Positions 11,929 through 16,306 of a stretch of 64,000 nt of DNA are shown one piece after another. The notes under the pieces are model-generated. The model ran no database searches. It had not been told where the DNA came from and saw only the letters and a program-made list of their open reading frames with translations. The stretch is from Pedomonas mirosovicensis (lineage in GTDB: Bacteria; Pseudomonadota; Alphaproteobacteria; Sphingomonadales; Sphingomonadaceae), in NCBI RefSeq assembly GCF_022569295.1, contig NZ_JAKFIA010000001.1:883001-947000 (forward strand), written 5' to 3'. The first letter of the stretch is position 1, and each line of letters starts with the position of its first letter. The translations under genes and the position numbers were made by a program.

Positions 11929-12507
11929 TCAGAGTCTTTCAATCTGGCTGGCGGCCTCATCGATGAGGGCGGCCGCCTTCAGCAGTTTTTCCCGGTCCAC
12001 GTCCGGCTGGGACAGGCGATCCTGAAGCACGGCCTTCAGGTTGTGCATGGCGCGGCGCACGGGGCCGGAGTCGGTGCGCTGGCCGACTTCCGCCAGGGCC
12101 TGGAGCCGGCTTTGCAGCGCCGCCACATCCTCGGCATGCTCGGCAAGGAAGGCGCGCCCGGCGTCGGTGATCGCCAGCTGGCGGCGGGCATCGTCGGTTT
12201 CCTGCCCGCGGGCGAGGCCCATGTCGATCATCAGCGACATGGCGGGGTAGACCACGCCGGGGCTGGGGGCATAGGCGCCGGAGGAGCGGGTTTCGATCTC
12301 GCGGATGAGGTCATAGCCGTGGCGGGGTTGGTCCTCGATGAGCTTGAGCAGGATCAGGCGCAGCTCGTTGGCGTTGAAAACGCGCCTGCGGCCGCCGCCG
12401 TGACGCCCGCCGGGGCCGCCTTCATGGCCGCCGAAGGGACCGCCGCCGTGACGCCCGCCGTGCGGATGGCCGAAGGCGAAGCGACGGAAATGATGGAAGG
12501 GGTGCAT
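11929..12507 (-). CDS. YqjI-like PadR-family metal-responsive repressor
   Basis: This 192-residue regulator has a His/Gly-rich N-terminal tail of about 40 residues (HPFHHFRRFAFGHPHGGRHG and more HGG repeats). A PadR winged helix follows (LRLILLKLIEDQPRHGYDLI, YAPSPGVVYPAMSLM), then a C-terminal dimer helix (RAMHNLKAVLQDRL). This is the architecture of E. coli YqjI, a nickel-responsive repressor of itself and of the ferric reductase YqjH. Nickel or other metal binding by the His-rich tail is inferred from that homology. A perfect 14-bp palindrome 28 bases upstream of the start is the likely autoregulatory operator. The gene leads a two-gene unit with DUF2218. Confidence 0.85.
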   Translation of the reverse strand: MHPFHHFRRFAFGHPHGGRHGGGPFGGHEGGPGGRHGGGRRRVFNANELRLILLKLIEDQPRHGYDLIREIETRSSGAYAPSPGVVYPAMSLMIDMGLARGQETDDARRQLAITDAGRAFLAEHAEDVAALQSRLQALAEVGQRTDSGPVRRAMHNLKAVLQDRLSQPDVDREKLLKAAALIDEAASQIERL

Positions 12508-12534
12508 GGGGTCTCCTGTGCTTTAAGATGGGTC

Positions 12535-12548
12535 TAAGATATATCTTA
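12535..12548. promoter_or_regulatory. Perfect palindrome TAAGATATATCTTA, likely PadR operator
   Basis: A 14-bp perfect palindrome lies 28 bases upstream of the PadR start codon in an otherwise GC-rich region. A partial extra half-site TTTAAGAT occurs at 12522-12529. Position and symmetry suit autoregulation by the dimeric PadR protein. Confidence 0.6.
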
Positions 12549-12591
12549 AAACACTCTTGTCAAGGAGGCTCCTGAGCGCAGTGCGGGGCGA

Positions 12592-14018: not shown

Positions 14019-14068
14019 AAAAAAATCCGCCGCTTCGTCTATCGGGGAGGTGACAGGCGAAGCGGCGG
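14019..14068 (-). terminator. Rho-independent terminator of candidate sRNA
   Basis: An 11-bp perfect stem, CGAAGCGGCGG with CCGCCGCTTCG (plus 14058-14068 and 14027-14037), is followed on the minus strand by ATTTTTTTATTC. No T-tract follows on the plus strand, so it acts on minus-strand transcription only. Confidence 0.75.
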
Positions 14069-14153
14069 CTTCAGTGGGTCTTCGTCCGGCTTCCGGCAAA
14101 TCTGGCCGAAGCGCCGGTGGGGAGATGCGGCGCCCTCAGAAGAGAAGCGCTAC
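14019..14153 (-). ncRNA. Candidate small RNA with CUCCCC loops
   Basis: A minus-strand promoter at 14188-14160 and a Rho-independent terminator at 14068-14019 bracket about 130 bases with no gene. The predicted RNA has a 6-bp hairpin (GCGCCG/CGGCGC, plus coordinates 14111-14133). Its 11-base loop contains CUCCCC. A second CUCCCC lies in the 20-base loop of the terminator hairpin. C-rich anti-Shine-Dalgarno loops of this sort are a hallmark of several alphaproteobacterial trans-acting sRNAs (CcsR/cuckoo-type). The RNA class is inferred; promoter, hairpins and terminator are visible. No other minus-strand gene needs this terminator. The region 13828-14452 otherwise holds only the leaders of the flanking genes. 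Confidence 0.55.
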
Positions 14154-14159
14154 ACGCAC

Positions 14160-14188
14160 TGTATAGCTGTTGCACAAGTTATGTGCAA
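14160..14188 (-). promoter_or_regulatory. Promoter and overlapping operator of candidate sRNA
   Basis: Reading the minus strand, TTGCAC (14188-14183) and TATACA (14165-14160) are separated by exactly 17 bases. A 19-bp inverted repeat TTGCACA-N5-TGTGCAA (14170-14188) covers the -35 box. The symmetry suggests a dimeric regulator controls this promoter. Confidence 0.5.
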
Positions 14189-14452
14189 TAAAAATCATTG
14201 ATTAATATTTGTGCAGAGCCTGCCTCAAGGCTGCCTTTCTGCCGCAAAAATTCGCAAACCCAGGGGGGCAGGAATGGATGGCGTCCCTTGGGCTTGGCTG
14301 GCGATGTTCTGCCGGGGGGCAAGACTCGCGCCGCTGCCAGAATCGAGCCGAAAATAACTGCAATATAGACGAAAGACGCTGGCCAGGGCCGCCTAGACTG
14401 ACGGACGCGGCGCGTCGATGCGCTGGAAGAGGTAGCCCCAAGGGAGCGACGA

Positions 14453-16306
14453 ATGGGCGGCTTAGGGCGTCTGCTCAAGGACAATCTCGGCACCATGCGG
14501 CAGGCGCTCGCCTTCGCCTGGGAGGCAGCCGACAGGCGGGTGAAGCTGCTGTTCACGCTGGCCGCCAGCTTCGTGCTGCTGGGCGCGGCGGCGGCCAGCG
14601 TCTCGCCGGTGCTGCTGAAACTGTTGGTGGATGGCCTGTCTGGCGAGGCTGATACGACGGGCACCACGCCCCCGGCGCTGGCGCAGCTTGGCGGGTGGGT
14701 CGGGCCGGTGGGGCTGGTGGCGCTCTATGTCATCTCCCAGGCCATGGCGACGGTGGTGGCGGAGATCCAGTCCCTCCTCAACGGCAAGGCGGACCAGCGC
14801 CTGCGCCGCTCCATGAGCGGGCGGATTCTCGATCACATCCTGCGCCTGCCGCTGCGGTTTCATCTCAACCGGCAGACCGGCGGCGTCAGCCAGATCCTCG
14901 CCAACGCGCTGACCGGCTACCGGCTGATTCTGCAACAACTGGTGCTCTCCATCGCGCCAGTGCTGTTCCAGATCGGCTTGTCGGTGTGGGTGCTGGCTGC
15001 CCTCTATCCACCGCAGTTCACGCTGATCCTGGCGGCGGCGTCCGTCGCCTATATCGTCGTGTTCCTGGTGGGCGCGGCGCGGCTGGCCGATGCGGGCCGG
15101 CAGGTCTCCTCGGCGGAGGTGGAGGCCTACGCCATCCTCACCGACACCATGCTCAACTACGAAACCGTGAAGTTCTGCACCGCTGAGGAGTTGACCCAGC
15201 AGCGCTACGACGGCGTGCTGAAAACGGCCGAAGGAGTATGGGGGCTCTATTACCGCCGCAAGGCGGAGAACGGCGCAATGGTGGCTGCGACCTTCGTGCT
15301 TTCCTTCGGCGCGGCGCTCCTGGCTGCGCTCCAGCAGGTGAGCACGGGCGCCATGACCGTGGGCGACTTCGTGCTCATCAACGCCTACATGCTCCAGATC
15401 GTGAAGCCCCTGGAAGCGCTGGGCATGGCGTTCTCGCAGATGATCTATGGCGTCACCTTCACCCAGAAGATGGTGGGCCTGCTGGCCGAGCCGACCGAGG
15501 ATGTGGCCGCCTTTGCCAAGGGCCTGCCCGTGCAGGCCAAGGCCCCGCAGGGCGGCGGGGCGCTGACGTTCGAGAGGGTCTCCTTCGCCTACGGTCCCGA
15601 GCGGCAGACGCTTGCTGACGTGAGCTTCAAGGTGGAGCCGGGCAGGACGGTGGGCATCGTCGGCGGCAGCGGGGCGGGCAAGTCATCGCTGGTGCGCCTG
15701 CTCGCCCGGCTGGTGGAGCCGGATGGCGGCCGCATCCTGCTCGATGGCGTCGATATCGCCTCCCTGCCGCTCGATGCCCTGCGCTCGCTCGTTGCCGTGG
15801 TGCCGCAGGATACGGTGCTGTTCAACCAGACGCTCGCCTTCAACATCGGCGTGGGGCGGCCCGGCTGCTCACGGGAAGAGATCGAGTCGGCGGCAAAGGC
15901 CGCGCGCATCCACGATTTCATCCTCCGCCAGCCACAGGGCTATGAAACCATCGTCGGCGAGCGGGGCGTGAAGCTTTCGGGCGGCGAGCGCCAACGCATC
16001 GCCATCGCGCGGGCTATTCTGCGCCGGCCGCGCATCTTCATCTTCGATGAGGCCACCTCGGCCCTCGATACCCGCACCGAACGGGAGATCCTGCGGAACC
16101 TGATGGAGGTTTCCCGCGGCACCACCACTCTCATCATCGCCCACCGCCTCTCGACCGTGGTCCACGCCGATCAGATCGTGGTGCTGGAGCACGGGCGGGT
16201 GATCGAAACCGGCACCCACGCCGGGCTGCTTGCCACCGGCGGAGCCTACGCCGAGCTGTGGAAAGCCCAGCAGCGCGGCCACAAAAAGGGCGCGGCGGCA
16301 GGGTGA
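14453..16306 (+). CDS. ABC exporter, Atm1/HMT1-like half-transporter
   Basis: This 617-residue fusion of a six-span membrane domain (about residues 30-330) and an ATPase domain (about 365-600) acts as a homodimeric exporter in the inner membrane. Walker A GGSGAGKSS is near residue 400, the signature LSGGERQRIAIARA near 507, and Walker B IFIFDEATSALD near 527, followed by the His-switch in IIAHRLS. The sequence around NYETVKFCTAEE matches the Atm1/ABCB7/HMT1 group (NYExVKyFxxE), which exports glutathione-linked compounds and confers metal tolerance. The copper ATPase gene follows 92 bases downstream, supporting a metal or thiol role. Substrate is inferred. Confidence 0.88.
   Translation: MGGLGRLLKDNLGTMRQALAFAWEAADRRVKLLFTLAASFVLLGAAAASVSPVLLKLLVDGLSGEADTTGTTPPALAQLGGWVGPVGLVALYVISQAMATVVAEIQSLLNGKADQRLRRSMSGRILDHILRLPLRFHLNRQTGGVSQILANALTGYRLILQQLVLSIAPVLFQIGLSVWVLAALYPPQFTLILAAASVAYIVVFLVGAARLADAGRQVSSAEVEAYAILTDTMLNYETVKFCTAEELTQQRYDGVLKTAEGVWGLYYRRKAENGAMVAATFVLSFGAALLAALQQVSTGAMTVGDFVLINAYMLQIVKPLEALGMAFSQMIYGVTFTQKMVGLLAEPTEDVAAFAKGLPVQAKAPQGGGALTFERVSFAYGPERQTLADVSFKVEPGRTVGIVGGSGAGKSSLVRLLARLVEPDGGRILLDGVDIASLPLDALRSLVAVVPQDTVLFNQTLAFNIGVGRPGCSREEIESAAKAARIHDFILRQPQGYETIVGERGVKLSGGERQRIAIARAILRRPRIFIFDEATSALDTRTEREILRNLMEVSRGTTTLIIAHRLSTVVHADQIVVLEHGRVIETGTHAGLLATGGAYAELWKAQQRGHKKGAAAG

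Follow-up and report, generated by a model that had tools for sequence, protein, structure and literature searches.

A predicted C-rich small RNA gene with a candidate tandem NtrC operator over its putative promoter in Pedomonas mirosovicensis

The 64-kb stretch of P. mirosovicensis DNA that we analysed (hereafter the window) contains what we read as a free-standing gene for a trans-acting small RNA (sRNA) of about 130 nt, with a sigma-70-type promoter that lies under a tandem NtrC operator and would be repressed in nitrogen limitation. We put the probability of this reading at roughly 0.55. Its terminator, its fold, two C-rich motifs and an NtrC-type palindrome were identified by sequence comparison. 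We infer that the RNA is transcribed and that nitrogen supply probably decides when it is made. Under nitrogen limitation, NtrC would occupy the palindrome over the -35 region, aided by a second site 28 bp upstream, and would shut the promoter rather than activate it; under plentiful nitrogen the RNA would be made, ending at a strong intrinsic terminator. Its C-rich stretches, which resemble anti-Shine-Dalgarno (anti-SD) sequences and lie in a linker and in the terminator loop, may then pair with ribosome-binding sites, blocking ribosome binding and lowering translation.

A terminated, structured unit in a divergent intergenic region

Followed along the minus strand from 14215 to 14019, the locus presents an AT-rich segment bearing the palindrome, a pair of promoter-like hexamers, about 130 structured non-coding bases and an intrinsic terminator, in that order. 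The elements of the predicted transcription unit are these:

14183..14188, minus strand: -35 element TTGCAC, inside the palindrome and 17 bases from the -10 element; weak consensus match
14160..14165, minus strand: -10 element TATACA (CTATAC in the alphaproteobacterial register); weak consensus match
14019..14153, minus strand: predicted small RNA, about 130 nt, with its start put near 14153 from the -10 element and its end at the T-run
14125..14155, minus strand: SL1, the 5′ hairpin of the minimum free energy (MFE) structure, 12/12 pairs standard
14119..14124, minus strand: first CUCCCC, in the SL1-SL2 linker, mostly unpaired (predicted unpaired probabilities 0.61-0.96)
14086..14117, minus strand: SL2, the middle hairpin of the MFE structure, 11/11 pairs standard
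14027..14068, minus strand: intrinsic terminator stem-loop, an 11-bp perfect GC-rich stem plus 5 further pairs
14044..14051, minus strand: 8-nt terminator loop ACCUCCCC, within UCACCUCCCC, the second C-rich anti-SD-like motif, fully unpaired in the predicted ensemble
14025-14019, minus strand: T7 run after the terminator stem

The terminator is the firmest part of the unit. An earlier note on this DNA had described an 11-bp stem followed by T7 on the minus strand, and we found both, together with the five additional pairs. Stems of at least 9 bp followed by at least six T occur twice in the 64-kb window, 14068-14027 among them, and never in ten shuffles of one strand only. Just one further intrinsic terminator of the window is very strong; it lies at 51653-51632 (minus strand) and has a 9-bp all-GC stem and T7. 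Because the plus strand carries no T-run behind the stem at our locus, the stem would terminate minus-strand transcription only; and since a plus-strand ABC transporter gene, divergent to the unit and starting at 14453 (about 260 bp from the palindrome), bounds the intergenic region at its far end, a minus-strand transcript that starts within the intergenic region is implied. No minus-strand gene lies inside the unit (14019-14215), as the earlier note had also stated; the next one begins some 260 bp further downstream and encodes a response regulator with an EAL domain.

The promoter that the note had placed at TTGCAC-N17-TATACA is there as to hexamers and spacer, but by consensus it is weak, matching TTGACA/TATAAT at 7/12 bases and the alphaproteobacterial CTTGAC/CTATAT form at 8/12. 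By consensus alone the pair is not above chance, and a consensus promoter scan listed no promoter at this position. Because the hexamers are weak, the transcription start is a prediction only. In AT content, the 60 bp around them rank in the top 0.1% of the window.

The predicted RNA folds into three hairpins (SL1, SL2 and the terminator), with an MFE of -59 kcal/mol for the 132 nt of 14019-14150 (z = -4.1 against dinucleotide shuffles) and of -62.6 kcal/mol for 14019-14155. CUCCCC occurs twice in 137 nt, against 0.04 copies expected from its frequency in the window (Poisson P about 8e-4). Both copies had been assigned to loops. This stands for the 8-nt terminator loop, where UCACCUCC corresponds to the core of the usual anti-Shine-Dalgarno sequence of 16S rRNA in general. 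The first copy instead falls in the linker, and a fold that holds it in a hairpin loop reaches -54.1 rather than -62.6 kcal/mol, a cost of 8.5 kcal/mol. The prediction of an autonomous promoter-terminator unit that encodes a C-rich, structured sRNA is supported; among the marks of a trans-acting sRNA gene, the terminator and the fold are present at the locus, and the promoter match is weak.

The RNA is single copy, and BLAST returned no homologue in 40 related genomes. Nor did a covariance model (R1) in 299 family genomes, where matches of at most 23 bits, against 170.6 for the RNA itself, were judged on inspection to be chance; the terminator helix of R1 is two columns off, so that the model effectively tests the sequence and hairpins 1 and 2 and is less sensitive to relatives that keep mainly the terminator. 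Plasmids gave 30-40-base matches only and phages none, and Rfam returned no family at the gathering score and unrelated families only at a relaxed threshold. The fold has no covariation support, these searches having returned no relative in a set that includes a single genome of the genus. Neither neighbouring gene yielded aligned intergenic regions: relatives of the response-regulator/EAL gene turned up in few genomes, and the ABC transporter gene (14453-16306) has one past the cut-off among 199 other family genomes. This sole relative is 42% identical, and the ABC transporter gene, which adjoins a heavy-metal ATPase gene, was possibly acquired.

Searched as a pattern in 40 genomes, the palindrome plus TATA had only two-mismatch matches elsewhere, about as many as a reversed control pattern. 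One match that resembles the palindrome (L041 in G023) was rejected, with no similar RNA downstream of it. In a relative (G133), a terminator-like hairpin with T6 at L058 1456-1573, near and upstream of an ATG, is possibly an attenuator or a small RNA, unrelated to the one described here. Target prediction, which had been proposed as a check and which we ran on nitrogen genes, gave no convincing target: against random stretches, ntrB is equalled or outdone in pairing by about 96%, and glnK stands at the 8.5% level.

NtrC-type sites at the locus and elsewhere in the genome

The 19-bp inverted repeat that the earlier note saw overlapping the promoter is exact: TTGCACATAACTTGTGCAA, at 14188-14170, has 7-bp arms and a 5-base spacer. 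As TTGCACATAACTTGTGCAA resembles a classical NtrC site, we sought to avoid circularity and chose a motif-blind dyad scan, covering all palindromic 3-mer dyads with spacers of 0-20 and assuming no motif, over regions upstream of P-II genes (probable glnK) in 36 further genomes of the family. The top dyad was TGC-N11-GCA, found in 25 of the 36 glnK upstream sequences against 3.2 expected, a count with a mild circularity of its own, the stretch scanned having been picked after an earlier look with the pattern TGCAC-N7-GTGCA. TGC-N11-GCA is also the published NtrC motif, experimentally proven in the NfeR1 promoter of Sinorhizobium meliloti (PMC10746234). In its strict form, TGCAC-N7-GTGCA occurs twice in the P. 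mirosovicensis genome, the other copy lying inside an amidohydrolase-like reading frame. From 35 sites in these glnK upstream regions, with the own genome left out, we built a symmetric NtrC matrix, whose symmetry covers both strands, and it picks out the following at the locus:

14170..14188, unstranded: 19-bp palindrome TTGCACAAGTTATGTGCAA, predicted NtrC site 1 (core 14171-14187), overlying the -35 element and spacer; 19.1 bits
14199..14215, unstranded: predicted NtrC site 2, TGATTAATATTTGTGCA, 28 bp from site 1; 17.7 bits, second-best in the window
14240..14256, unstranded: possible weak third NtrC site, TGCCGCAAAAATTCGCA; 11.8 bits, fourth in the window and not above shuffles

Over the 64-kb window, ranks 1 and 2 of the matrix thus fall side by side, at 14171 and 14199, and the next score, 12.7, lies elsewhere. 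The best single scores of ten shuffled windows ranged from 12.2 to 17.6; site 1 exceeds all of them, and site 2 taken alone is barely beyond chance. The case for an NtrC operator rests on site 1 and on the pairing. The dyad TGC-N11-GCA is exact at 14171-14187, and 14199-14215 carries TGA in place of the left TGC. Their 28-bp spacing compares with 29 bp at the genome's own glnK and with 28-29 bp at its nitrate-transport locus and in several relatives.

NtrC itself is encoded in the genome (C1:1723920; TIGR01818, 663 bits against a cut-off of 558.6), and three of its own loci serve as controls. Both glnK-amtB (C1:129818) and a locus beside an NrtA-like gene for nitrate transport (C2:643457, the gene identified by reading its translation) have NtrC-like sites followed by a sigma-54 promoter. 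Upstream of dusB-ntrBC, an NtrC-type site of 22.1 bits lies close to a sigma-70-like promoter, with no evident sigma-54 promoter beside it. The operators of glnK-amtB and dusB-ntrBC have the dyad and core in common with the sRNA locus; glnK further shares the tandem spacing of 28-29 bp, and dusB the nearness of a sigma-70-like promoter, whereas the sigma-54 promoter downstream of the glnK sites has no counterpart at the sRNA locus. In S. meliloti, NtrC represses the NfeR1 and dusB promoters (PMC10746234). The dusB-ntrBC site matches this negatively autoregulated dusB promoter, and by analogy autorepression would be expected. By these comparisons the palindrome has the form that NtrC-type sites take in this genome and across the family; what had been called an operator-like repeat is upheld and now reads as part of a tandem NtrC-type site.

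Two other observations concern regulatory sequences outside the locus. The nitrate-transport promoter at C2:643457 has a perfect -24/-12 and three NtrC-like sites and is probably of the NtrC/sigma-54 type; in its leader, a GAGGGG/CCCCTC hairpin is a possible attenuator. In the window, a AGATATATCT-type palindrome at 12525-12550 is likely an autoregulatory operator of the PadR-family regulator gene (11929-12507, minus strand) that lies directly downstream of it.

Repression and its alternatives

A sigma-54 matrix built from 28 relatives scores real promoters at 14.5-30.9, with the genome's own nitrate-transport promoter at 24.6 and its own glnK promoter at 14.5. At the sRNA locus it found no sigma-54 promoter (-24/-12, TGGCAC-N5-TTGC) on either strand, the best scores being -7.2 and 0.1. 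Because site 1 covers the -35 element and spacer, the centre of site 2 lies near -55 of the predicted promoter and no sigma-54 promoter is present, we take repression of a promoter of the sigma-70 type, read from the geometry of the sites, to be the simplest and best account of the mode of control.

The tandem NtrC sites might instead serve the ABC transporter gene: the palindrome is symmetric and lies some 260 bp upstream of that gene in the intergenic region common to both, the sRNA then being regulated only incidentally or independently of nitrogen. We consider this unlikely. Between the sites and the gene, the best plus-strand sigma-54 score is the -7.2 given above; the transporter, a fused membrane/ATPase protein of exporter type whose gene adjoins one for a heavy-metal ATPase, is not an obvious nitrogen gene; and the palindrome overlaps the minus-strand promoter.

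The position of the response-regulator/EAL gene, on the same strand and about 260 bp past the terminator, would also suit a terminated leader, that is, an attenuator of this gene. On inspection, the sequence before the terminator repeats no more of the 11-bp arm than CGAAG, too little for a strong anti-terminator; Rfam gave no riboswitch or leader, and none of the three frames of the predicted RNA holds a leader peptide with a plausible start. With a terminator that is moreover very strong, we judge an attenuator improbable.

We are equally sceptical that NtrC activates the sRNA, which would have the RNA produced in nitrogen starvation to curb the translation of costly proteins. NtrC of Rhodobacter capsulatus activates sigma-70 promoters, and tandem sites resemble an enhancer, but a dimer on site 1, over the -35 element and spacer, would block polymerase. 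The missing sigma-54 promoter speaks against activation as well, as does the dusB-ntrBC site, likewise near a sigma-70-like promoter, where the S. meliloti precedent leads one to expect autorepression. Least probable of all is that a different regulator with a similar binding sequence recognises the palindrome, or that its match to the NtrC motif is chance, the RNA being an ordinary species-specific sRNA: other regulators can bind TGC...GCA-like palindromes and shuffled windows reach single scores of up to 17.6, but here the two best matches are adjacent, have the family's characteristic spacing and are matched by control sites elsewhere in the same genome.

Relation to known alphaproteobacterial sRNAs

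On the reading we prefer, an NtrC-repressed sRNA, the closest known RNA in behaviour is NfeR1 (alpha-r14) of S. meliloti, an orphan trans-acting sRNA of about 115 nt with three hairpins and unpaired C-rich anti-SD motifs, whose sigma-70 promoter is repressed by NtrC via a TGC-N11-GCA site (PMC10746234, PMC8844928). The sRNA locus likewise combines three predicted hairpins and unpaired C-rich motifs with TGC-N11-GCA in the promoter region. The two differ in that NfeR1 exposes three unpaired CCUCCUCCC motifs, one per hairpin, whereas the predicted RNA has two CUCCCC, one of them in the linker; in that the NfeR1 site lies far upstream, at -116 to -100, and the sites described here lie over and just upstream of the promoter; and in that NfeR1 pairs with ntrB mRNA in a double-negative loop, whereas ntrB is no predicted target of our RNA. 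We therefore regard NfeR1 as a functional analogue, the best reading of the likeness, and not as a demonstrated family member.

AbcR1 and AbcR2 (alpha-r15) carry two anti-SD motifs, CUCCUCCC in the loop of the 5′ hairpin and UUCCCCUC in the SL1-SL2 linker (PMC8844928). They resemble the predicted RNA in length and in having one such motif in that linker, but they are controlled by LsrB/RpoH1, their motifs differ from CUCCCC, and the predicted RNA has no Rfam match. The kinship to CcsR/cuckoo RNAs suggested in the earlier note found no support. Those too are alphaproteobacterial sRNAs with unpaired C-rich anti-SD-like motifs, and their definitions include a CCUCCUCCC motif in stem-loops (PMC10253847, PMC10746234); in Rhodobacter sphaeroides, CcsR comprises four homologous RNAs processed from the transcript of a DUF1127 gene under RpoHI/HII (PMC10253847). 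The predicted RNA stands alone as one unit under a putative promoter of its own, with no tandem copies, no adjoining DUF1127 gene and no Rfam match, and its only C-rich motifs are CUCCCC and CACCUCCCC, not CCUCCUCCC.

A literature search, conducted outside most subscription journals, returned no report of an NtrC/anti-SD-sRNA arrangement beyond the rhizobia. It is a tentative possibility that a circuit like that of NfeR1 evolved here independently, with a lineage-specific anti-SD RNA, silencing by NtrC directly over the promoter and nitrogen status setting the translation of mRNAs. Were such an independent origin true, the wiring of NtrC to an anti-SD sRNA would be a convergent design in alphaproteobacteria. 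If our reading is correct, the input of an uncharacterised sRNA, nitrogen status via NtrC, would have been named from its sequence alone, and the finding would suggest that an NtrC-sRNA circuit of rhizobial symbionts recurs in another alphaproteobacterial family, built there on an unrelated RNA and with its operator placed differently.
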